This document shows, piece after piece, positions 1,367-20,512 of a stretch of 22,310 bases of DNA. Where the stretch lies: positions 1 to 22,310 of IMG/VR virus record IMGVR_UViG_3300025131_000480; one strand, given 5' to 3'. A program made the position numbers and the translations under genes. The stretch comes from a virus. Position 1 is the stretch's first letter; each line of letters starts with the position of its first letter. Below the pieces are notes generated by a model that had not been told where the DNA came from, ran no database searches, and saw nothing but the letters and a program-made list of their open reading frames with translations.

Positions 1367-3244
1367 TTATGAAATGGTTAATGTATTAGATCCCGACACT
1401 GTAAATTTAGCGACATAACATCCGCCAGGAGTTGTTGTCACTGTATTACTTCCTGGACTGACTGCCATAGGGAATGAACTTGGAGTTCTAAATATAACAA
1501 TTCCAGAACCACCTGCTTTTCCTGCTCGTGGATCACCACCGCCTCCACCAGCCCCACCGCCGGTATTAACCGTTCCATCAACGCCACAAATGCCACCTAG
1601 AGGAGAATTTGGAGTAGTACCTGAATTTCCACCACCACCATTTCCACCGACGCCACCCGGATTACCACTGGCCCCAGTTCCACCACCGCCTCCGCCTGCG
1701 TAAAACACAGGAGAGCCTGTTATTGAATTTTCTAAACCTACACCACCTGCGCCCCCTTGACCTGGAGTTGCAGTGGTACCAACGGCACCCGCACCTCCAC
1801 CACCACCTGAAGCAAAAACAGGACCTGGACCGTCTAAACCTTGACCTCCATTATTTCCTTGAGGACCTCCAGCAGGTGCTCCAATAGGGGGTGTGTTTCC
1901 ACATCCACCTGGTTGAGAACCATTTGAACTTCCTCCTCCGCCTGAACCACCATTTCCTCCAACACGCGCGGCCGGACCAACACCTGCGCCACCGCCGCCT
2001 CCAGCTGCAGTAACCGTTGAAATAGTTGGACCTGCAATAGATGAATCGGTTCCAGTTACTCCTCTAGGAGCAGGAGCAGGAGCAGGTGAAGTAGGGCCAC
2101 CGGCCCCACCAGCTCCTACCGTTACTGTAAAAGTATAAGGTGTAGACCAATTGCTTAATGGAATAAGAGCAGGAGAAGCAGTTGGATTACAATACGTATT
2201 AATGTAACCACCAGCTCCACCTCCACCTCCTTGGTGACCACAAGTACCATTTTGAGAGGAGCCTGAACCTCCGCCTCCACCTACTAATAACCAAGACATG
2301 TTGGCTGTAGTTTCCGGCTTTGGCCATGATCCTTGAACTCTTTTTGAATATTGTGCTTGTTGAGGCCATATGCCTGATGCGTAATTTAATTCTTTTGTAA
2401 CTAAAATTCCTGGGCCACCATTACCGGCTGCATAGCAAGCGCCCGACGTTTGAGGGGCACCTCCGCCACCACCACCTGTATTATCAGTTCCCGGTAGGGC
2501 TTGATTTCCTGTAGGACCAGAATTTTGACCGCCTCGTCCGCCACCACCAGGGCCTCCGGCTCCGCCTGGATCTCCACCTCCGGCACCACCACCTCCACCC
2601 GCATAAAGGACTGGACTGCCTGAAATACATGTTGCTAAACCATTACCACCAGCACCACCTGTTGTGGGAGGACCAGAAGATCCTGCACTACCCGCACCAC
2701 CAGCACCACCACCGCCTCCTCCTGATTCAGGTTGAGTACCGCCGGCTCCTCCATCATTTCCTTGTGGGGCTCCATAAGCTGAACAAGCTGGAGGATCATT
2801 ACCGGGTCCTCCTGCATCATTAAAATCTCCACCGCCGCCTGATCCACCAGGACCACCGACTCCAGGATTTCTTCCGCCTAAACCACCACCCGTTGCGGTT
2901 GCACCAAAAGCTACACTATCATTTCCTTTAACACCATTGCAAGAAGTTGGACTGCATCGTCCAGCGCCACCACCACCTATCGTGATTGGATAACCCGTAG
3001 CAGCACATACATCAATATGAGAAGTCCAGTTATCGGACTCAAGCATTCCTCCGCCACCTCCACCACCAGCAGAATCTTTTCCTCCACCACCGCCACCAGC
3101 AACTAAAACCATTTTTAGTCTAGTAGTTCCCGGTTGTGTTGTGAATGTTCCTGTGGCTAGAGTTGAAGTAACTTTATTTTTTCCGAAAGAAGTCTTATTG
3201 ACTTTTCCGATAACACCACCTTGTGAACGACCTGATTTGGCCAT
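1367..3244 (-). CDS. Glycine-rich fibre/adhesin-like protein, two modules
   Basis: 625 aa, dominated by glycine with Pro, Ser, Ala and Asn. Two tandem modules are visible, about 45-288 and 314-590. Each opens with a hydrophobic strand running into polyglycine (MVLVAGGGGGG; WLLVGGGGGSG), continues with GGGGAGG blocks and a VTVGAGGAGG-type strand, and closes with GGxGI(L/V)V. The modules are joined by a Trp/Gln linker (SGIWPQQAQYSKRVQGSWP). This matches the glycine-rich domain of phage tail-fibre proteins (Pfam Gly_rich_2 type). The C-terminus (GSNTVTTTP, then KFTVSGSNTLTIS) resembles that of the 953-aa protein at 3764-6625, so the two are probably duplicates with different module numbers. The start has AAGGAG 6 nt upstream, and the previous gene's TAA lies inside that site. 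Receptor binding is inferred from family and position. Confidence 0.8.
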   Translation of the reverse strand: MAKSGRSQGGVIGKVNKTSFGKNKVTSTLATGTFTTQPGTTRLKMVLVAGGGGGGKDSAGGGGGGGMLESDNWTSHIDVCAATGYPITIGGGGAGRCSPTSCNGVKGNDSVAFGATATGGGLGGRNPGVGGPGGSGGGGDFNDAGGPGNDPPACSAYGAPQGNDGGAGGTQPESGGGGGGAGGAGSAGSSGPPTTGGAGGNGLATCISGSPVLYAGGGGGAGGGDPGGAGGPGGGGRGGQNSGPTGNQALPGTDNTGGGGGGAPQTSGACYAAGNGGPGILVTKELNYASGIWPQQAQYSKRVQGSWPKPETTANMSWLLVGGGGGSGSSQNGTCGHQGGGGGAGGYINTYCNPTASPALIPLSNWSTPYTFTVTVGAGGAGGPTSPAPAPAPRGVTGTDSSIAGPTISTVTAAGGGGGAGVGPAARVGGNGGSGGGGSSNGSQPGGCGNTPPIGAPAGGPQGNNGGQGLDGPGPVFASGGGGGAGAVGTTATPGQGGAGGVGLENSITGSPVFYAGGGGGGTGASGNPGGVGGNGGGGNSGTTPNSPLGGICGVDGTVNTGGGAGGGGGDPRAGKAGGSGIVIFRTPSSFPMAVSPGSNTVTTTPGGCYVAKFTVSGSNTLTIS

Positions 3245-3763: not shown

Positions 3764-6625
3764 CTATAAAGTCAAGGTCCCTGATACCGTAAAAGTAGCC
3801 ACAGTGCAAGATCCTGTTGTACTTACTGTATTAGTACCTGGGGCTACTGCAAAAGCCGATGGTTTACATGCTGTTGGTAATCTTAATATAACAATCCCAG
3901 AACCTCCAGCACCACCACAACTGCCAGCTCCAGGTCCATCTCCGTAGCCTCCACCACCGCCACCACCTGTATTAACGGTTCCTGCGGTTCCACCTGAAGT
4001 AGGAGCAGAAGGACCTCCTCCGCCGCCACCTCCGGCTCCGCCTGCACCAGCAGTAGAACCATTTTCATTTCCTCCAGCTCCGCCACCACCACCTCTTTGA
4101 ACAGGGGATCCTGTAATACAACTTGTTAATCCTGCTCCACCATCGAGTCCACTCGTAGAGGGATAACCTAGACCTACTGCTCCAGCGCCTCCACCACCTG
4201 CAGATGCATAAGGAGATCCTGCTGGATGTCCATCTCCTCCAGGATAACCTTGTGTTCCGGCCGATCCTGTTACTCCCGGCGAGCCATGAGCTTGTCCTGC
4301 AATACGTCTGTCTGCACAAGGACTATAAGATGCGCCACCACCAGAACCTCCGGCTTGAGCGCGATTTAGTGGTGACCACTCTGGGGAGGGCATTTCCGCA
4401 CCCCCTGCACCACCACCTAGAGCAGTTAAAATTCCAATTGTAGAAGCAGATCCATCATTTCCTAGTCTTGAAGGGGCAGGACCAGGTTTTGCATCCCCTC
4501 CATCACCACCACTTCCTACTGTGACGTTATAAGATGATCCTTCCCATAAAGTTGTTGCTGATACAGGAGGAGTAGAATAAGAAGTAATATAACCACCGGC
4601 ACCACCTCCACCACCATAGGAGCTTCCGCCACCACCTCCACCACCGACGAGTAAATAATCTAAAGTTACAGCTGTACCCCCTGGATTAGCTGTTAAAAAA
4701 CCACCCGTACTATTAAATAAATGTTGAGTTTTGCAACCTGGGACAGAAGAAACTGTTCCTCCAGAAGCTGCTTGAGCACCAGGATATTGAATAATAACAA
4801 CACCTGAACCTCCAGCTCCACCTTTTTTAGAACAATTACATGGATTGGGATTACCTCCGCCTCCACCACCACCGCCACCAGTGTTAGCTGTTCCTGGGAA
4901 TCCTACTGTTTTAGATAAAGGTACTGGTTGAGGAGAAGGATCGGATCCTGAAACTCCTGCACCACCACCCCCGGGGCCTCCAGCCCCTCCGTAAGTTGGA
5001 AAACTTGGTGAGCAACGCGCTACGGGATCTGGATATCCTCCTCGACCTCCGCCACCGCCTGCTCTTAATGTTGCATCTCCTGGCCATGCGCTAGAACCTG
5101 CACCGCCATCTCCACCTGGACCTGTAACTCCTGGACCTTGATCGGGAAGATCAGGAGCTGCCGCACCGGCACCTCCGCCACCACCAAAACCAGCATTATC
5201 GGCTGGGGTTCCTCGTCCCCCTGGATTTCCTTGAGACATCAATTTGGCCGGGTTATTTCCACACCCAGCAAAAACTGGACCTGGAGCAGGTCCCATATGA
5301 CCTCCGCTTCCAGAAGCTCCATCTTTTCCTGTGCATCCTGGAGAGCCATTTGTAATTCCTTGCGCTCCTCCACTACTACATATTGTATGAATACCTACAC
5401 CACTAAAACTTGATGTACCGCCATCGGTACTCAGAATATCTCCAGAAGGAGCAAATATTCCTCCTACTCCTCCACTTCCGATTACTGCTGAATAAGTAGT
5501 ACAAGCCGTTAATTTTAAATCTGTATTATATTGATAGCCACCCGCACCTGCACCCGAAGCAAATCCTCCGCCGCCTCCACCGATAACTAATACGTTAACT
5601 GGGAATCCTCGAGTTGTAGGAAATGACCATTTATTTTGTAAGGCTGCATCATATTGATCTTCCATACTCCACATGCCTGAAACTTTACATACTGTGCCAG
5701 CCGCTTTTTCTTTAACGACCACCATGCCTGAACCACCATTAGCACCCCATTGATTACCAGGGCCATAACCACCTCCGCCGCCTCCACCACCGCGACCGCC
5801 TCCGCCTACACCAATAGGTGCAGTTGGGGGTTCTGAAGGAGGATTAGGAGAAGAATAAGGTGCGCCACCCACACCACCTGTTCCACCACCACCTGAACCA
5901 CCAGCTCCGCCTGGAATTGAAAAAGGAGGTCCACCGCCAGGGTTTTGAACTCCTCCGCCGCCACCACCTCCAACGTTTCCGTCGAAAGTTCCATCGGCAC
6001 CACCATAACTTGTAATATCTATTGTTGAAGTAATTGGACCACCAGCTCCGCCAACACCCGTTAAACTTGGTGAAGAACATCCACCTACCGCTGTCCAACC
6101 TCCACCACCAGCTGCTCGTGTGGGACCACTGGATCCACAATTTCCTCCGCCATCAAAACCTTGCGCAGGACTTGTAGGAGGAGTATTTCCTGATCCTCCA
6201 GTTCCGGGAGCACCATTACCAGCGTTTCCGCCCCCTGATCCTCCTGGACCACCAGCTCCAGATTGACATCCACCAAGGCCACCACCTTCGGCTTCGATTG
6301 TACTTGATAAAGCTATACTTGAATCACCACCTTTTGTCGAAGGGCCAGAAGGATAAGGACCACCTGTTCCCCCTGCACCAACTACAATTGCGTAGTCAGT
6401 TGAAGCAGAGACCGATTGACAGGTTAAGGCTCTAACTCCACCAGCTCCGCCACCACCACCAACACCGCCAGCTCCACCTCCGCCACCACCAGCAACTACA
6501 ACAACATCAACATTTGCTGTACATGCGTCTGTCGTAAGTGTTCCCGATGTCGAGAAGACTGAAACTTTGGGTGTGATTATTTTACCGACTGGGTTGTTAG
6601 GTCCGATAATTCCGCCATTAGCCAT
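3764..6625 (-). CDS. Glycine-rich fibre/adhesin-like protein, three modules
   Basis: 953 aa, the largest complete gene here. Three tandem glycine-rich modules are visible, about 37-315, 340-625 and 653-925. Each starts with a strand plus polyglycine (VDVVVVAGGGGGG; VNVLVIGGGGGG; LDYLLVGGGGGGG), carries a YxVxVGxGGxGG-type strand about 50 residues later, and ends GGSGxVxxx. Module 1 and module 2 are joined by a Trp/Gln linker (VSGMWSMEDQYDAALQNKW); module 2 and 3 by a Cys-containing linker. The C-terminus (APGTNTVSTTGSC, then TFTVSGTLTL) matches the 625-aa paralogue. Polyglycine blocks of this type can pack as polyglycine-II helices in phage adhesins (known for S16-like gp38); whether that holds here is inferred. 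AGGAGG lies 11 nt before the ATG. A host-recognition fibre is the best guess. Confidence 0.8.
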   Translation of the reverse strand: MANGGIIGPNNPVGKIITPKVSVFSTSGTLTTDACTANVDVVVVAGGGGGGAGGVGGGGGAGGVRALTCQSVSASTDYAIVVGAGGTGGPYPSGPSTKGGDSSIALSSTIEAEGGGLGGCQSGAGGPGGSGGGNAGNGAPGTGGSGNTPPTSPAQGFDGGGNCGSSGPTRAAGGGGWTAVGGCSSPSLTGVGGAGGPITSTIDITSYGGADGTFDGNVGGGGGGGVQNPGGGPPFSIPGGAGGSGGGGTGGVGGAPYSSPNPPSEPPTAPIGVGGGGRGGGGGGGGYGPGNQWGANGGSGMVVVKEKAAGTVCKVSGMWSMEDQYDAALQNKWSFPTTRGFPVNVLVIGGGGGGFASGAGAGGYQYNTDLKLTACTTYSAVIGSGGVGGIFAPSGDILSTDGGTSSFSGVGIHTICSSGGAQGITNGSPGCTGKDGASGSGGHMGPAPGPVFAGCGNNPAKLMSQGNPGGRGTPADNAGFGGGGGAGAAAPDLPDQGPGVTGPGGDGGAGSSAWPGDATLRAGGGGGRGGYPDPVARCSPSFPTYGGAGGPGGGGAGVSGSDPSPQPVPLSKTVGFPGTANTGGGGGGGGGNPNPCNCSKKGGAGGSGVVIIQYPGAQAASGGTVSSVPGCKTQHLFNSTGGFLTANPGGTAVTLDYLLVGGGGGGGSSYGGGGGAGGYITSYSTPPVSATTLWEGSSYNVTVGSGGDGGDAKPGPAPSRLGNDGSASTIGILTALGGGAGGAEMPSPEWSPLNRAQAGGSGGGASYSPCADRRIAGQAHGSPGVTGSAGTQGYPGGDGHPAGSPYASAGGGGAGAVGLGYPSTSGLDGGAGLTSCITGSPVQRGGGGGAGGNENGSTAGAGGAGGGGGGGPSAPTSGGTAGTVNTGGGGGGGYGDGPGAGSCGGAGGSGIVILRLPTACKPSAFAVAPGTNTVSTTGSCTVATFTVSGTLTL

Positions 6626-12543: not shown

Positions 12544-13455
12544 TTACGCTCCTGGTGAGCCGTAAATACCTCTCCAGTCGGATACGCCAAATGCGTATCT
12601 TTCTCTAGCTTTGTATCTTACGTTACCAGTATCAAAGTCACCTTCCATTGAAGTTTTCAATGGTGCTCTATCGAAATGTTTCATTCCGTTAGGAACATCA
12701 GTGATAATGAAGAAAGCATCGTTGTCGTTTAGATAATGGTTAACAACATAACCTTCAGGGATTGAACCCATGTGGTTGATTGCGTTAATGTCATTATCTG
12801 CAGTACCTACTCTGCCTTTAGACTTCATCAGTCTTTCAGCAGTGAAAATAAGGTCAGAAGGTATTACTAATCTTCTTGCCTTAGCTGCAACTTTTAAACC
12901 TCTTTCATCTTTAGTTGCTGCAATGTTAATCAACATTGATTCTAAAGAAGTTTCGTTTAAATCTGCAGAAGTACTTAGTTCGTTTGCTTGGTCACCTGAC
13001 AAAGTTGGGTGGTCAGTTGTCAAAAGACATTTTCCATCACCATAGAAAGGTCCGTTAGATGTATCAAAACCATTGTTTAATACATTTGCACCTTTCGTAT
13101 TTTTTGTTGATGCCATTGAACGAGCTAGGGCTTTTGTATAACGAGAAGCAAGTCTGTCGTAGAGGTTATCTTCGATAGCTTCTTCTGTTATTGCGAAAGC
13201 CAATGCAATTGTCTCCATTGTATATCTTGCAGTGTAAGTTTCCTGAGCTGTGTCGAAGCTTACGCCTTGACCTTCAGGTTTAACTGCTGCGTCACCGAAT
13301 CCTGATAACATTACTTCCTCTTCGAAAGCTCTGTCTGAAGACTCAGTTACAAAGATATCTTTGGTTTCGTCTGCGTATTGTTTATACTCCAACCCGAACA
13401 AGGCATTTAAACCTGGCTCGAGCTCTTTTACTAGCTGCTGTCGTGATATTGCCAT
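12544..13455 (-). CDS. Major capsid protein (HK97-fold type)
   Basis: 303 aa, the usual size for a single-domain HK97-like coat without a long pro-region. Visible landmarks are an N-terminal helix (ISRQQLVKELEPGLNALFG), an E-loop-like stretch rich in Gly and acidic residues near 45-75 (VMLSGFGDAAVKPEG), YTARYTMETIALAFAITEE around 73-91, a spine-helix-like segment LYDRLASRYTKALARSM, LLTTDHPT at about 144-151, and the C-terminal AFGVSDWRGIYGSPGA. This order matches the Mu gpT-like coat family seen in marine phages. Gene order (scaffold, accessory, coat, neck genes) agrees. The ribosome site AAGGAG lies 8 nt before the ATG, and a stable hairpin follows the stop, both consistent with high expression. 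HK97 fold is inferred from family resemblance. Confidence 0.85.
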   Translation of the reverse strand: MAISRQQLVKELEPGLNALFGLEYKQYADETKDIFVTESSDRAFEEEVMLSGFGDAAVKPEGQGVSFDTAQETYTARYTMETIALAFAITEEAIEDNLYDRLASRYTKALARSMASTKNTKGANVLNNGFDTSNGPFYGDGKCLLTTDHPTLSGDQANELSTSADLNETSLESMLINIAATKDERGLKVAAKARRLVIPSDLIFTAERLMKSKGRVGTADNDINAINHMGSIPEGYVVNHYLNDNDAFFIITDVPNGMKHFDRAPLKTSMEGDFDTGNVRYKARERYAFGVSDWRGIYGSPGA

Positions 13456-14624: not shown

Positions 14625-15626
14625 TTATGCTCCTTCCGTGTTTAATAATTGTTTCGCATATTCTTCGAGTGGCACGCCTAATTTTTTGGCTATTTGAACC
14701 TGTGATGACGTGAGTCTCACATTTTTGCGACCAGGTTTAACGCCTCGTTTCACCGAAGCAACCGACTGAACGGGTTTGGTCGTATTTGATACCTTTCTAT
14801 CAAATTTATGAGGAAAGTCAACTTTTATTCTTTTGTCGATCTCTGCATAGTATTCATCTGATTTAGGATCAAAACCTTCTTTTTCCACGAGGTCTTTATG
14901 AATTTCGAACGCTGTGAAGGTCATGGCTCTATCTTTTCCGAACCATGCATTCTTAGACGCCCAATCTTCGGCCTTTTCGTCAACTTGAGGAAGACTTGGA
15001 GTAGCTCCAGGTGCTTTCTCATATGCGGGAGTTTTAGGCTCCTGTTCATAGTGTTCTCTTTTTAACTTTTGAGATTCAATACTTTTAGCATCCCCTGTTA
15101 AAGCACTTAATTCTGCTTGGGCTTCAACTTGTTTTGCTGTATCTCCAGACTCAATAGCAGTTGCTAATTTTCCTTTAACAGCTTCTAATTGGCTTTTGAC
15201 TCTTTCTTCTGAATCTTTAAGATAAGTGGAATCTAGTTTTGCATATCTAGTTTCCCATTGTTTTCTTTTATGCTCAATACTTTTAGCATATTCAACTGCG
15301 GCATCTTTCTGTCGTTCCGCCTCTCTCCATTTCTTAGTTAATTTAGCAATACGTTTCTTAACACCTTCACTATAGTCTTCTAGTTTTTCATCTTGTTTTT
15401 GATCGTCCTTGCCATCTCGAACATCCACTGACTCATCCAATTTCTCAGATGTATCAACGGACTGAGTATCGTCCTGCTTAACTTCTTCATTTGTTTCCTT
15501 CTCTGGTTCCGCAGCAGTTTCTGTTACAACTGCTTTTTCTTTTTCTTCTGGTAATTCAACATCGGCACCCGGACCCGTCGTATCAATGTCTACCAATTTT
15601 TCTTCTTTTTTTGTTTCTTCTGGCAT
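14625..15626 (-). CDS. Putative capsid scaffolding protein
   Basis: 333 aa, highly charged. Residues 1-85 are strongly acidic and disordered. Residues 88-195 form a long predicted coiled coil (KKRIAKLTKKWREAERQKD onward). A conserved segment follows: NAWFGKDRAMTFTAFEIHK at 226-244, then GFDPKSDEYYAEIDKRI at 251-267. The C-terminus is basic and helical (VRLTSSQVQIAKKLGVPLEE), like the coat-binding helix-turn-helix end of phage scaffolds. Size, charge and position upstream of the coat gene fit. It has AGGAAGG before the ATG. There is no protease gene in the window, so whether the scaffold is cleaved or released whole is unknown. Confidence 0.75.
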   Translation of the reverse strand: MPEETKKEEKLVDIDTTGPGADVELPEEKEKAVVTETAAEPEKETNEEVKQDDTQSVDTSEKLDESVDVRDGKDDQKQDEKLEDYSEGVKKRIAKLTKKWREAERQKDAAVEYAKSIEHKRKQWETRYAKLDSTYLKDSEERVKSQLEAVKGKLATAIESGDTAKQVEAQAELSALTGDAKSIESQKLKREHYEQEPKTPAYEKAPGATPSLPQVDEKAEDWASKNAWFGKDRAMTFTAFEIHKDLVEKEGFDPKSDEYYAEIDKRIKVDFPHKFDRKVSNTTKPVQSVASVKRGVKPGRKNVRLTSSQVQIAKKLGVPLEEYAKQLLNTEGA

Positions 15627-15647: not shown

Positions 15648-16124
15648 TTACATTTCATGCAAGATCTCTTCAGGATCCTGTATTGTTGCTAGAATCTCGT
15701 CTTCATTTAAGATTCTTACTTCTCCTCCTTCAATTTTAAATCGTGATCCTGCATATCGTGCAAAGATCACCCATTCGCCTTTCTTGCACCACGGGCCATC
15801 AGGATAGCGTTTTTTATCACTATAACAATCAGGTCCCATTTCTAATACTAGCCCACAGACAGTGGCTAAGTGTTGTCTTTCGGCTGCTGTCTCAGCAATA
15901 TGAATTCCACCTTTTGTTTTTCTTTTAGGTTGAAAAGGTAGAATTAAAATTCTCCATCCGGTTGGTTTAGGTAATTTTGATCCTTCAGGAGGTTTATTTC
16001 TTTTAGCTTCTTCTAAAGCTTCTTCTTCAGCTGCTTTTTTTAAAGATTCTTCTAAGGCTAGTTTAACCTTTGGTAGGTCTTGGGTCTTTGTCGATTCTGA
16101 CGACGTTTCCGTCTTTTTCTTCAT
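15648..16124 (-). CDS. Phage co-chaperonin (GroES/Cpn10 family)
   Basis: 158 aa. After a charged helical extension of about 50 residues comes a full Cpn10 barrel: PKPTGWRILILPFQPKRK (52-69), the mobile-loop region KTKGGIHIAETAAERQHL with GGIHI at 72-76 equivalent to the GGIVL of GroES that binds GroEL, then ATVCGLVLEMGPDCY, the roof loop region with two Cys, GEWVIFARYAGSRFKIEGGE (116-135) and RILNEDEILATI (137-148). It would cap the host GroEL ring, as T4 gp31 does for its coat protein. Adjacent scaffold and coat genes support a role in capsid folding. AAGGAG precedes the ATG; the start lies 62 nt inside the preceding gene. The N-terminal extension is unusual for Cpn10 (about 95 aa). Confidence 0.85.
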   Translation of the reverse strand: MKKKTETSSESTKTQDLPKVKLALEESLKKAAEEEALEEAKRNKPPEGSKLPKPTGWRILILPFQPKRKTKGGIHIAETAAERQHLATVCGLVLEMGPDCYSDKKRYPDGPWCKKGEWVIFARYAGSRFKIEGGEVRILNEDEILATIQDPEEILHEM

Positions 16125-16314
16125 ATAGCTCCTTTTTATTAAGCAGGTTGGATATTTCCTGTAACACTGATTCCAGTGCGCTTATTTGTCCGGTAATATA
16201 TTTATATTTATCAAAATTGTCAACCCCACCAGACGTAACGTTGATTGATAAAGAAGCGAGATTTTGTCTTATCGCCCGCTGCAATTTATGGATAAAAACA
16301 AATTCGTTTTCCAT
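16063..16314 (-). CDS. Conserved small helical phage protein
   Basis: 83 aa. The opening ENEFVFIHKLQRAIRQNL, the GGVDNFDKYKYITGQISALES centre and the helical C-terminal part suggest a two-helix protein; the pattern recurs in marine phage head modules without function. The ATG overlaps the stop of the 25-codon Lys-rich gene (TAATG) and has no ribosome site of its own, so translation probably depends on re-initiation. The 3' end overlaps the co-chaperonin gene by 62 nt in another frame. The disordered end (RIDKDPRPTKG) falls in the overlap. Confidence 0.65.
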   Translation of the reverse strand: MENEFVFIHKLQRAIRQNLASLSINVTSGGVDNFDKYKYITGQISALESVLQEISNLLNKKELYEEKDGNVVRIDKDPRPTKG

Positions 16315-16391
16315 TATTTTCTTTTTTTCTTAGTTTTTCTTTTTTTATTTTTCTTAGTTTTTTTCTTTTTCTTAGCTTTTTTCTTAGCCAT
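16314..16391 (-). CDS. Lysine-rich micro-protein (25 aa)
   Basis: 25 codons starting MAKKKAKKKKKTKK. By count, 17 Lys and 2 Arg out of 25 residues and no acidic residue, so net charge is about +19. Support for translation: a perfect AAAGGAGG 6 nt before the ATG, and TAATG overlaps with both the preceding 44-codon gene and the following 83-codon gene. Low-complexity poly-A DNA can be spurious, but the ribosome site and exact coupling on both sides argue for a real gene. Such a peptide would bind nucleic acid by charge alone; condensing DNA, binding RNA or neutralising charge in the head are possible. No homologue recognised. Confidence 0.6.
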   Translation of the reverse strand: MAKKKAKKKKKTKKNKKRKTKKKRK

Positions 16392-16525
16392 TATGACCTC
16401 CTTTTTTTCTTTTTCTTTTTCTTCTTACCTACGGGCTTACTTCCGTAAGTTTCTGTCCAATCTCTAGCAATCTTTGGTTCGTTCTTCCAAAGATATCTTC
16501 TCTGTTTTTCGGATTTAAAAGGCAT
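16391..16525 (-). CDS. Small basic protein with poly-Lys tail (44 aa)
   Basis: Starts MPFKSEKQRRYLWKNEP and continues IARDWTETYGS to about residue 29; this N-terminal block is one I recognise as recurrent in tiny proteins of marine phages. Residues 34-43 are eight Lys then two Arg. The bases coding the K-R-R part are also the ribosome site (AAAGGAGG) of the next gene. The ATG overlaps the stop of the 54-codon gene (TAATG); the upstream site is weak (AAAGATAA). Net charge is about +14. Function unknown; the Trp/Tyr/Arg block suggests a small helical binding element. Confidence 0.7.
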   Translation of the reverse strand: MPFKSEKQRRYLWKNEPKIARDWTETYGSKPVGKKKKKKKKRRS

Positions 16526-16689
16526 TATTTATCTTTGTTAAAAAACTTCTTCATTTTAAGCTTTTGTTTATAAGCTTTAGTATCTTCAAAGCCAAGCTTT
16601 GGTTCTACTTTTTTAATAGTACTTCCTAACAATTCTTTAACTTTTCCTGCAGTTTTAGGATTAATAAGTTGTTTTAACCAACCACTCAT
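16525..16689 (-). CDS. Small basic protein (54 aa)
   Basis: Starts MSGWLKQLINPKTAGKVKE and contains FEDTKAYKQKLKMKKFFNK near the C-terminus. Fifteen Lys against five acidic residues gives about +10. The N-terminal WLKQLI could form a short amphipathic helix, possibly membrane-associating, which fits its position directly after a holin-like gene. The ATG overlaps the holin stop as ATGA and the stop overlaps the next ATG as TAATG. A GGTGG in the end of the preceding gene may serve as the ribosome site. No family recognised. Confidence 0.65.
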   Translation of the reverse strand: MSGWLKQLINPKTAGKVKELLGSTIKKVEPKLGFEDTKAYKQKLKMKKFFNKDK

Positions 16690-17075
16690 TTTTTTCCACC
16701 ATTACGGAATATTTGAGTTCCCTTTATACCAAAAACACTCGCCACGACGAGAATCCATAAATTTGTGAACCATTTTGGCAGATTAGAGAAATACTCAAAA
16801 AATACGTTAACCTTCTCTAAAGCCGCCGGATCCTCTGTCCACACCGACCAAGCGAGCACAATTATCGGGAGTGTAAGTATCCCAAGGACGATTTCGTCCT
16901 TGTAGTCGTTTTGCCGAGCTTCTAAAAGCTTGCCCTGGTAAGATTCCTCACCGGAGGCCATCCGCTGTGCATGCATAAGCTGTGCATCTGACATTGCCAT
17001 TTTCGTCTTTTGACGATTGGCATATATCTTGCTTCCAGCTTGTAATGCTATTTTAGCTAATCCGAACCATGCCAT
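16686..17075 (-). CDS. Putative holin (GTA_holin_3TM-like membrane protein)
   Basis: 129 aa. A short hydrophobic N-terminal helix (AWFGLAKIALQAG) is followed by a polar helix to about 58, a transmembrane segment at about 62-79 (IVLGILTLPIIVLAWSVW), a helical stretch, and a second at about 103-118 (FTNLWILVVASVFGIKG) with the preceding LPKW. The KDEI-hydrophobic-LPKW-VASVFGIKG arrangement resembles the gene-transfer-agent holin family in alphaproteobacterial phages. It would form the membrane lesion that releases endolysin. Position between portal and scaffold genes, away from any endolysin, is unusual, so a virion or ejection-related membrane protein cannot be excluded. AAAGGAGAG precedes the ATG. 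Confidence 0.55.
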   Translation of the reverse strand: MAWFGLAKIALQAGSKIYANRQKTKMAMSDAQLMHAQRMASGEESYQGKLLEARQNDYKDEIVLGILTLPIIVLAWSVWTEDPAALEKVNVFFEYFSNLPKWFTNLWILVVASVFGIKGTQIFRNGGKK

Positions 17076-17124: not shown

Positions 17125-17307
17125 TTAGTACCACTTAACTTTTGACTTTTTGTCAGCAAGCATTCTTCTTTGTCCACCAACTTGATCTTCTACGGGAATC
17201 TTTTCAGAAACTTTATATTCGTTTCCGCCCTTAGCATATCCATCTTTGTTGGTAAACTGTTTGAAGTCTACTCCCTTGTAAAAAGGTCTATCTTTTTTAT
17301 CAGCCAT
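17125..17307 (-). CDS. Small basic protein (60 aa), unknown function
   Basis: Starts MADKKDRPFYKGVDFKQF and includes GYAKGGNEYKVSEKIPVED around 23-41, then GGQRRMLADKKSKVKWY to the end. Lys and Arg dominate; no membrane segment. The YAKGG element resembles the KGG motifs of its neighbours. The ATG overlaps the stop of the 134-aa gene (TAATG) with AAGGAAGG upstream. Part of the basic small-protein cluster between portal and scaffold; no known family. Confidence 0.65.
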   Translation of the reverse strand: MADKKDRPFYKGVDFKQFTNKDGYAKGGNEYKVSEKIPVEDQVGGQRRMLADKKSKVKWY

Positions 17308-17711
17308 TATGCTGCCTTCCTTTTCTTAGCCATTTTCTTAAATGTCTTCGCTAATGCTTTAGCTCTACCTGTACATCCAGGTTTAGTAATCGGGGTACAT
17401 TTTCCTTTAGTGCCTCTAGCTTTAATGGATTTATTAACATCTTGAATCCAGTTTTTGTCACCACCTTTTTTAAGACCAACACGTCCACCTTTGTTATATC
17501 CTTTGTTCAATTCTCCATGCACTCTAGATATTTCAGCTCTTCTATTTCTGTTAGAAGGTTCAGCTTCCACACGACCTAATTCTTCTAATAAAGCCGTACG
17601 TCCGCCACCAAATCTTAATCCAACACGTCCACCTTTATTATGACGCGTTCGACTTTTATCTTTAGAACCGCCTCTTTCACAGCCACGGCCTTTTCTTGAA
17701 ATGTCTCCCAT
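17307..17711 (-). CDS. Basic protein with two KGGRVGL motifs
   Basis: 134 aa with many Arg, Lys and Gly. Two near-identical motifs, NKGGRVGL at 25-32 and 73-80, flank a conserved helix-like block ALLEELGRVEAEPSNRNRR (40-58) continuing to ISRVHGELN. I recognise that block and the KGGRVG motif from many uncultured marine phages, where function is not known. The C-terminal 50 residues are very basic with two Cys (C105, C113) and a K/R-rich end. It could bind nucleic acid or act as an internal head protein; both are inference. The ribosome site is modest (AGGA about 9 nt upstream). Confidence 0.7.
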   Translation of the reverse strand: MGDISRKGRGCERGGSKDKSRTRHNKGGRVGLRFGGGRTALLEELGRVEAEPSNRNRRAEISRVHGELNKGYNKGGRVGLKKGGDKNWIQDVNKSIKARGTKGKCTPITKPGCTGRAKALAKTFKKMAKKRKAA

Positions 17712-17719
17712 TTTAAATC

Positions 17720-17971
17720 CTATTTATTTACTTTGTTTGAACGACCAAATTTCTTTTTACGTTTTCCCCATTTTCCATAAGATTCATCTCTACGAGCTTT
17801 CATAGATTGTTTCTTAGAAGATTCTTTTCCAGTTCTCATTCCTAGAGATTCGTCTTCTCTATCTTTGTAGCCCTGTTTTTTCTTCTTCTTAACAGATCCG
17901 CCTTTTTTAAAGCCTTCTCTGCCATATGGAAATCGTACGCTATAAGGTCTGCTTCCGAAATCATCACGCAT
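17720..17971 (-). CDS. Small very basic repeat protein (83 aa)
   Basis: About 29 Lys/Arg against roughly 10 acidic residues. After an N-terminal segment with FKKGGSVKKKKK (21-32) come two imperfect repeats, KDREDESLGMRTGKESSKK and KARRDESYGKWGKRKKK. The RRDESYGKWG type of element recurs in small marine-phage proteins, as far as I recognise it, without function. AGGAG lies 9 nt before the ATG. It is the first gene after the portal and likely shares its transcript. Possible DNA-binding or packaged protein; not provable here. Confidence 0.7.
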   Translation of the reverse strand: MRDDFGSRPYSVRFPYGREGFKKGGSVKKKKKQGYKDREDESLGMRTGKESSKKQSMKARRDESYGKWGKRKKKFGRSNKVNK

Positions 17972-18001: not shown

Positions 18002-20512
18002 CTAACTTCTAGGTCCTTTCAAGGTTTTTACGTCTTTTCTTTTCATCACATCAGACCGCATTTTAGCCTTGTTGGACATATCTTGCTTAATTAGCGAAGT
18101 TTCAGCCCTTAAAGTAGCTAAATCTTCGTTTTGTTCGAGTTTTTGCTCTGTCAGATCTCGATTCTGCACCAACTTAGTTTTATCTAAGTTAATTCGTTCC
18201 GTAGTCTCTGTTTGTTTACGATAATTCTCCATAGCTTTCAAGTCAAGTTCTTGAGCTTTAAGCTTAATCAATGGATCACTATCCAACATGGATGTAATCT
18301 CTTTTTCTTGCTTCATAAACTCTTCAGTGTATTCAGCAATAAGAACGGCTTTTCTAGCTTCCATTTGTAAGTTTAATTCTTGCATTCTTTTTTGAGCTTC
18401 AGGACCTTGTAAACCTTGTTGTTGAGCTTGTTGCATCTCCATGATCTGTTTAGCAAATTCTAATTCAATATGTTCCTGAGCCATCAAGCTAATATGTTCA
18501 AATATGTTCTTTTCTAATGCCGCCATGATAGGTGGATTATTTCTAGCAAAATTAGTTGCCATAAAATTCATATGAGCCGTGATATGAGCTCTATGATCTT
18601 GATTCCGATACGCTTGGAAAGGCTTCATCGCCATTGCGTCAATATGTTCCATCGCCGGATCTTTAGGTTGAGGAGGCGGAGGTGGAGGTAAAAGTTGATC
18701 TATATTTTTTAATCCTAACGCTTCATACATTTTACGATAAGAAGCATACAAATTATGCATTTGAGGATTAGACATAGCCAACTGTAGTTCTGTTTGAGCT
18801 AAAGTAATTCTTTGAGTCATAGAAAAAATATTAGGATCTGCAACCGGTACAATATCCACTCTGTCATCAAAATCCATTTGCTTAATCATTCTTTGTCCAC
18901 CTACAACATCGTAAGGATATTCAGCAGGAAGATATTGAGAAAAAATAGTCGCTAATAATTTAAATTCTTGTTTAAGACCATTATATAATCTTTTATGAAT
19001 AGCACTCATAACTCTTGAGCCTCTTTCAAGTAAAGCAACAGTCGTTCCAACTGCGGCATTTTGATTTCCTTCTCCTACTTGCATATCTGCAATAGAAGCA
19101 AATCTTTGACCCGCTTGAACTACAATTCCCATTAATTGTAATAAAGTTTGTGAAGGTTCTTTGTAAGGTAAAGGATAGAAGGCATCTTTTAAATTTCCTC
19201 CAGGTGCATCTACATCTCTAAACTCTCCTGGTTGTAATGGCTGTGCATCATCTCTAACTCGAATACCACGCATTTTAAATCCAGCCGGTAAGTTGGATAA
19301 CGTTCCAGCATCAAGTAATTGGCGGAGAGCGACGGTTGCCGTTCTACTCAATCCGCCAATCATATGAATAAGTCCAAAGCCGTAGAAACCTAGTCCAGGC
19401 AGAAATTTAAAATGGACAAAGTATTGGACTTTTTTCTTGAGTGGATCGTTAGGTTGGTAATTTCTTCGGATTGATAAAATTTGTCTAGCCCCAGCTTCTA
19501 AAGTTACAATGTAAGGAAGTTTAATTCCAGAAGGTTCTCCATCTTCTCCCATATCTTCAAAGCCTTCTAAATCTAAATTAATATGTGCTTCTAAAATGGT
19601 GTAAGTGGTATCCGCAGCTTGAGAGCTGTAAGATTTTCTTGTACCTTCAAGTTTTCGTTCTTCTTCATGAACTTTATCTTGAGTATAGTTGGGTCGACCT
19701 AATTCAATATCTGAATAAAATCCTGAGACTTGAGCTTTACGAATGTCATTCTCAGACATGTACATTCTTTGGAATATTGCTTCCGCATCTTCTAATGAGG
19801 TAGCAGAATACGGAACAATTAAATCATCGGCTTGAACGAACTTTGAAACAGCTCGGCCGATCATTTCATCATAATAAACTTTCTTAAACGAGGAACCTGC
19901 CAGAGGTAAATAAAATAACATTTGATCAAATTCTGCTTCGTACTCTGGCATTTCATTCATGATTTGATAATTCATGTATTCTTTTACCCGAGCAGCTTGA
20001 TCTTCTTTATCTCTTGTAGCGACTCCTAAAATTTGAGTTCTAACCGGACCATCTGCCGGTAATAATTCTTTATACGCGGTTGCTTGAAACTGTGTAACCG
20101 CTTCAGCGAGTACAGGGTGCGTAGCACCGGATGCTCCTTGGAAAGGTTGAGCACGATTCACATACTTGAATCCTAAAAGATCCAATCCTGTTACATAAGA
20201 CTGTTCCCAGTCTTTTCTGGAAGTTTTATAATCTTCGTAATTTTGATAAAGTTCAGAAGCTAAACGATTAACGATTTGTTCAGGTAAAAGATCCGCTAAA
20301 TTAGAGAAATGATCTTCTCCTCCACCTGCGGCTGCTTTGCCCGGTTCAAATTCTATTTCTGCGCTTCCATCTTCGTTTTGGACAATTTCTACGCCATCCT
20401 TATTAATTTCCTCAATCTTTTCCGACTGATCTATTTCAATTTCTTCAGGGGATTCAACGTAAACTTTTTCCTTCACATTCGGAAGGGACTTGTCAATTTT
20501 ATCTACTGCCAT
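18002..20512 (-). CDS. Portal protein (P22-like, long form)
   Basis: 836 aa. An acidic disordered N-terminus (to about 68) precedes the portal core. Landmarks are LASELYQNYEDYKTSRKDW at 84-102, QPFQGASGATHP at 122-133, a YKELLPADGPVR segment at 147-158, LPLAGSSFKKVYYDEM near 200, and LPGLGFYGFGLIHMIGG near 370 leading to the long crown/stem helices, then VGTTVALLERGSRVM. After a hexaproline (609-614) the last 220 residues are a Gln/Met/Glu-rich coiled-coil extension like the barrel of P22-type portals. It forms the dodecameric DNA gate and docks terminase, neck and scaffold. AGGAAC precedes the ATG. The family call is strong; the barrel interpretation is inferred. Confidence 0.85.
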   Translation of the reverse strand: MAVDKIDKSLPNVKEKVYVESPEEIEIDQSEKIEEINKDGVEIVQNEDGSAEIEFEPGKAAAGGGEDHFSNLADLLPEQIVNRLASELYQNYEDYKTSRKDWEQSYVTGLDLLGFKYVNRAQPFQGASGATHPVLAEAVTQFQATAYKELLPADGPVRTQILGVATRDKEDQAARVKEYMNYQIMNEMPEYEAEFDQMLFYLPLAGSSFKKVYYDEMIGRAVSKFVQADDLIVPYSATSLEDAEAIFQRMYMSENDIRKAQVSGFYSDIELGRPNYTQDKVHEEERKLEGTRKSYSSQAADTTYTILEAHINLDLEGFEDMGEDGEPSGIKLPYIVTLEAGARQILSIRRNYQPNDPLKKKVQYFVHFKFLPGLGFYGFGLIHMIGGLSRTATVALRQLLDAGTLSNLPAGFKMRGIRVRDDAQPLQPGEFRDVDAPGGNLKDAFYPLPYKEPSQTLLQLMGIVVQAGQRFASIADMQVGEGNQNAAVGTTVALLERGSRVMSAIHKRLYNGLKQEFKLLATIFSQYLPAEYPYDVVGGQRMIKQMDFDDRVDIVPVADPNIFSMTQRITLAQTELQLAMSNPQMHNLYASYRKMYEALGLKNIDQLLPPPPPPQPKDPAMEHIDAMAMKPFQAYRNQDHRAHITAHMNFMATNFARNNPPIMAALEKNIFEHISLMAQEHIELEFAKQIMEMQQAQQQGLQGPEAQKRMQELNLQMEARKAVLIAEYTEEFMKQEKEITSMLDSDPLIKLKAQELDLKAMENYRKQTETTERINLDKTKLVQNRDLTEQKLEQNEDLATLRAETSLIKQDMSNKAKMRSDVMKRKDVKTLKGPRS

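Follow-up and report, generated by a model that had tools for sequence, protein, structure and literature searches.

Three overlapping micro-genes encoding increasingly basic peptides, the last of them almost pure poly-lysine, were found among the head genes of a marine phage, and all three frames are very likely real genes. We tentatively read their products as late, modular, charge-selected peptides that may well bind DNA or some other polyanion while the head is assembled. The window (the whole stretch analyzed, 22,310 nt of IMG/VR record IMGVR_UViG_3300025131_000480) is, judging by its sequence, part of an HTVC023P-like marine podovirus, kin of the Pelagibacter phages HTVC027P and HTVC023P and of phage 023Pt_psg01, and these relatives also suggest its host. 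The gene order is portal, three small basic genes, holin-like gene, the three micro-genes, 83-aa gene, GroES, 333-aa scaffold-like gene and major capsid gene (Table 1). Being small, basic and on the same strand between the portal and capsid genes, the micro-genes have the placement of marine podovirus head-module proteins, and this setting favors a role in head assembly over one in the host. The 333-aa protein, with its acidic N-terminus, is a possible polyanionic partner, and the 83-aa gene has 51 related loci. The holin-like label of the 129-aa gene is strengthened by its homologues, which directly follow a putative M15 peptidase gene in HTVC035P and HTVC034P and precede spanin-like genes in L016. 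Elsewhere in the window, positions 1367-3244 and 3764-6625 encode two long proteins of 625 and 953 aa with glycine-rich repeats; they look alike and are probably tail or fiber related.

Table 1. Features of the head module in the window and, in the last line, of related contigs.
Feature	Position	Strand	Remarks
Portal protein, 5′ border of basic island	18002..20512	minus	phrog_1216 2.9e-74
Three small basic genes, same island	17125..17971	minus	60 aa net +6, 134 aa net +27, 83 aa net +19
129-aa holin-like gene, upstream neighbor	16686..17075	minus	PHROG 2524 (phrog_2524)
54-aa basic gene	16525..16689	minus	variable slot; C-terminal motif like stand-alone 35-aa peptides (KPTLGxxxTKEYLKKLKMKxxKKK) of relatives
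44-aa conserved gene	16391..16525	minus	MPFKSEKQRRYLWKNEPKIARDWTETYGS core + poly-Lys tail
25-aa poly-Lys micro-gene MAKKKAKKKKKTKKNKKRKTKKKRK	16314..16391	minus	net +19; SD GGAGG 5 nt upstream
83-aa gene	16063..16314	minus	PHROG 32603 (phrog_32603), function unknown; constant downstream neighbor; overlaps GroES gene
GroES/Cpn10-like co-chaperonin, 158 aa	15648..16124	minus	PF00166 1.1e-11; phrog_3188 5.9e-19
333-aa protein, scaffold-like placement	14625..15626	minus	phrog_28737, function unknown; first 75 aa net -17
Major capsid protein, 3′ border of head module	12544..13455	minus	PF25209 1.4e-16; phrog_371 2.8e-23
Cold-shock (CspA-like) gene in 54-aa slot, marine phage head module	L100:156-374, L101:3396-3614, L102:3657-3875		

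A preliminary description of this DNA had reported three overlapping frames between the holin-like and 83-aa genes, and reading of the open reading frames on the minus strand returned the same frames, flanks and joints: ATGA, TAATG and TAATG for the genes of 54, 44 and 25 codons, and then TAATG into the 83-aa gene. Recomputed net charges likewise rise along the chain, as had been described, from +10 (54 aa) through +14 (44 aa) to +19 (25 aa), and 19 of the 25 residues of the last peptide are Lys or Arg with no Asp or Glu, so that in composition it is protamine-like (short, largely Lys/Arg, free of acidic residues). As possible roles the preliminary description had named DNA packaging, RNA binding and charge neutralization in the capsid. 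A strong Shine-Dalgarno (SD) sequence precedes the 25-aa gene alone: AAAAAAAGGAGG, 5 nt ahead of its ATG and within the preceding stretch AAAAAAAGGAGGTCATAATG; the 54- and 44-aa genes have a weak one or none, and each overlaps the gene before it. This SD is encoded by the last codons of the 44-aa gene (AAA AGG AGG TCA, read as RRS at its end), and in many relatives the 44-aa tail encodes the SD of the next gene in the same manner (KRRKK = AAAGGAGGAAGAAATAATG). The strongest rival to a role for the peptides starts from these signals. It holds that the purine-rich Lys/Arg codons matter as RNA, as SD sites, for coupling or for pacing ribosomes toward the next gene, and that the peptides are by-products, and both the SD-encoding tails and the overlap at every junction speak for it. 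However, many 44-aa tails consist simply of K8-K10 and contain no strong SD, and the 25-aa gene weakens rather than supplies the site of the 83-aa gene, since it shifts GGAGG away from that gene and leaves it only AAAGAAAATAATGG. Moreover, poly-Lys genes stand ahead of several unrelated genes, and an SD takes about 8 nt, not 75. We therefore consider these translational devices an unlikely explanation of the locus.

The head-assembly reading draws first on the 44-aa gene, which is the constant part among viral contigs with the same flanks. Its core has a median dN/dS of 0.10 over 435 pairs (56 distinct variants), while its tail varies and stays mostly Lys/Arg. AlphaFold predicts two helices (residues 6-15 and 17-27) and a disordered tail at a mean pLDDT of 73.6, a model with a pTM of 0.37 that is too small and weak for a fold search, and a search with the 44-aa profile found no relative in the PDB (best E 0.64). 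The core of the family matches the profile of PHROG 1375, of unknown function, with 11 of 34 family members matching at E up to 0.1 (best 3.4e-5), although the copy in the window taken alone falls below threshold (E 0.17). Unlike the 70-aa profile, members here are 34-62 aa long and mostly have poly-Lys at their C-terminal end. The preliminary description had called the whole element a candidate for an undescribed one; this stands for the 54- and 25-aa genes, for which PHROGs and Pfam returned no match, but not for the 44-aa gene, whose family is catalogued. Homologues of the 44-aa gene also occur without a matching annotated gene in Prochlorococcus phage P-RSP2 (L363:3501-3620) and Synechococcus phage S-CBS2 (L365:3501-3645), an example of small genes overlooked in public records.

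The 25-aa frame is not a product of chance, as neither simulations nor related loci yielded such frames to any extent elsewhere. ATG-initiated ORFs of 16-40 aa with at least 65% Lys/Arg were absent from Markov simulations of the sense strand of the window (120 runs for each of orders 1, 2, 3, and 5), and in 2.59 Mb of related loci that had not been retrieved via the poly-Lys pattern only seven occurred on both strands. Five of these lie at the 25-aa site (the window's included) and one is a nearby cognate (L034); the seventh, a 27-aa ORF in L016, was rejected as a poly-Lys gene, being a shadow frame within a 562-aa frame. In all, six contigs carry a version at the exact site (the window, L093, L096, L097, L098, and L099; by locus, the copies are L093/L144/L262, L096, L097/L359, L099/L354, and L098). 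These versions have 23-30 aa, at least 60% Lys/Arg and no acidic residue, with in-frame indels and, in L098 (VKKNKAKQKIRSLKSSKKKKKRKKNKKKKK), a GTG start. Substitutions among them spare charge, in line with the preliminary expectation that Lys content would be kept while the sequence drifts. The L099 version, MAKKKKKVKKKKKIKKKNKKKRK, comes from a contig about 17% divergent from the window, and in a simulation of drift with 17% substitution an open frame with at least 74% Lys/Arg was left in only 5.5e-4 of trials (about 1 in 1800). The L099 copy could be an independent gain, in which case selection for composition would still be required. Close copies of the 25-aa gene differ by only three substitutions, too few for a dN/dS of its own.

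Most relatives do without the 25-aa gene. Among 42 distinct contigs in which the 44- and 83-aa genes are adjacent, the two join directly through TAATG in 29 and overlap by 14 nt in 7, one (L084) has a 23-nt gap without a poly-Lys frame, and in five (the window, L093, L096, L097, and L098) 70-88 nt are inserted between them and encode such a frame; L099 has a further copy, yet lies outside this count because its contig ends there. The gene is thus absent in 37 of the 42 and therefore dispensable. Related phages do carry such genes between the holin-like and GroES (Cpn10) genes, as had been anticipated, and interrupted frames between the same flanks were looked for without a broken copy being found, the relatives being cleanly without the gene. 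The idea of the three-gene chain as a conserved unit was not borne out, however: the 44-aa gene stays constant, the slot of the 54-aa gene changes its occupant, and most relatives that share the flanks have no 25-aa gene. Its presence in few relatives, the low-complexity A-rich DNA and the length changes by whole codons would all suit A-rich tracts that expanded neutrally or by slippage in this AT-rich genome and were tolerated while they stayed in frame. Against this, there is a single background poly-Lys/Arg ORF in the 2.59 Mb, while the versions at the site retain their frame, start, SD and charge even at divergences large enough for drift to disrupt these; no same-site version has an acidic residue, and the genes recur in other phage lineages. 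We regard neutral expansion as improbable.

The 54-aa gene has a dN/dS of ~0.09-0.2 (against L093 and L095), so that the purifying selection previously posited for the frames is borne out for both this gene and the 44-aa gene. The occupants of the 54-aa position in relatives are 35-aa peptides with the C-terminal motif of the 54-aa gene, longer fusions and a cold-shock protein, and some contigs have the position empty. In L100-L102 the occupant is a cold-shock nucleic-acid-binding domain (PF00313, 1.9e-23). Such a neighbor, and the RNA that poly-Lys peptides would bind, could also point to takeover peptides directed at host RNA or ribosomes and not at the head. The genes sit within the head module, however, and a head module is usually expressed late, while host-takeover genes are usually early; we give this alternative little credence.

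Poly-Lys genes are also found at other sites. Stand-alone genes of 18-23 aa occur in the same module at a different position (L034, L186, and L201), in T7-like L167, L195, and L204, where the capsid gene and a small gene of phrog_1811 type follow shortly after, and in L198, a little upstream of the portal gene; in L349 and L358 stand-alone poly-Lys genes lie outside any recognized head module. Other candidates were rejected as stand-alone genes, the peptide being the tail of a longer ORF (L162, L187, L200, and L213) or forming, in the same frame, the C-terminal half of a protein of 46-48 aa (L158, L163, L166, L184, and L194). In this latter protein the N-terminal half is acidic and the C-terminal half poly-Lys (L163:1029-1169, minus strand; L184:2263-2409, plus strand; L194:1859-2005, minus strand; likewise L158 and L166). 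Where its halves join there are an ATG and a strong internal SD (AAGAAGGAGGTCACAATG in L184), and the poly-Lys half may therefore also be made alone. That the peptides help lysis as cationic partners of the adjacent holin-like 129-aa protein is very improbable, even with one poly-Lys gene (L349) near an M15-like peptidase gene, as poly-Lys peptides are not amphipathic and their genes occur near head genes without an adjoining holin-like gene (L167 and L198).

In the isolate HTVC027P, genes 44-53, which lie between the portal gene and the 83-aa homologue, have a mean charge per residue of +0.206 versus +0.024 for its other genes of up to 130 aa (permutation p = 4e-5). Between scaffold and capsid, isolates of Pelagivirus carry further small genes that are basic. 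Since poly-Lys genes recur and the head modules of HTVC027P and the pelagiviruses hold small basic genes, we take the interval from portal to GroES to be an island of small genes with basic products, of which the 25-mer is the extreme member.

Under the head-assembly reading, positive charge itself would be what selection keeps. The 44-aa gene would contribute a conserved mini-domain of two helices and a disordered poly-Lys tail; ahead of it would lie a basic gene open to exchange (54 aa), and behind it an optional, nearly pure poly-Lys peptide (25 aa). Translation is probably coupled through the overlapping start and stop codons, and the Lys/Arg codons that end the 44-aa gene would supply the ribosome-binding site of the 25-aa gene. 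We infer that the peptides are made late together with the head proteins, bind as polycations and enter the virion. During assembly they may target the viral DNA, condensing or neutralizing it as internal peptides of the head, or else an acidic protein of the head, for which the 333-aa scaffold-like protein is a candidate. This reading is put forward because of the purifying selection on the 44- and 54-aa genes, the basic same-site versions and the drift simulation, together with the recurrence near portal, scaffold and capsid genes in other lineages, the charge of the HTVC027P island and the cold-shock occupant. Counted against a role in the head are the absence of the 25-aa gene in 37 of 42 contigs, the position of the L349 and L358 genes, and the published view of phage DNA neutralization given below. 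A broader proposal, which we find possible though rather doubtful, is that stand-alone poly-lysine peptides (about 18-30 aa) would form a dispersed class in marine phages that gene callers miss and that acts as polyamines encoded in the genome. Produced alongside the head proteins, they would neutralize or condense DNA or pair with an acidic scaffold, and unrelated lineages would gain or lose them as modules.

The closest known counterparts are small basic head-module proteins of pelagiphages (phrog_16028 GLYANIHAKRKRI; DUF6321, PF19846; DUF5872-like), which share the position between portal or scaffold and capsid, the small size, the strongly basic character and the combinatorial occurrence. 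They differ in sequence and have conserved motifs, whereas the 25-mer consists almost entirely of poly-Lys; no function has been assigned to any of them. The internal head proteins of phage T4 (IPI-IPIII) are also small basic head proteins, but the likeness is an analogy only, as they are larger and have cleaved targeting sequences, and a sequence relation to the micro-genes is not expected. Protamine- or histone-like virion proteins of large DNA viruses, such as A437L of PBCV-1, are likewise small and very basic; PBCV-1, however, is a eukaryotic virus whose basic proteins are packaged with the DNA, A437L at about 2178 copies per virion (PMC3281028), so that virion presence is established there, while the micro-genes are known from sequence. 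For phages, DNA is thought to be neutralized by metal ions and polyamines and little by proteins, and the same source states that evidence for a large contribution of basic proteins is lacking (PMC3281028). The small basic genes of this pelagiphage region are visible in public records, yet they are not discussed as far as our limited literature search shows, and that search, on lysine-rich phage micro-proteins and on virion proteomics of these phages, found nothing specific. Gene-length cut-offs and trypsin-based proteomics would each miss such peptides. If charge-selected peptides do recur in the head modules of phages akin to some of the most abundant in the ocean, the idea that proteins add little to DNA neutralization would come into question. 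Cultured pelagiphages allow this to be tested, among them HTVC027P with its comparable island.
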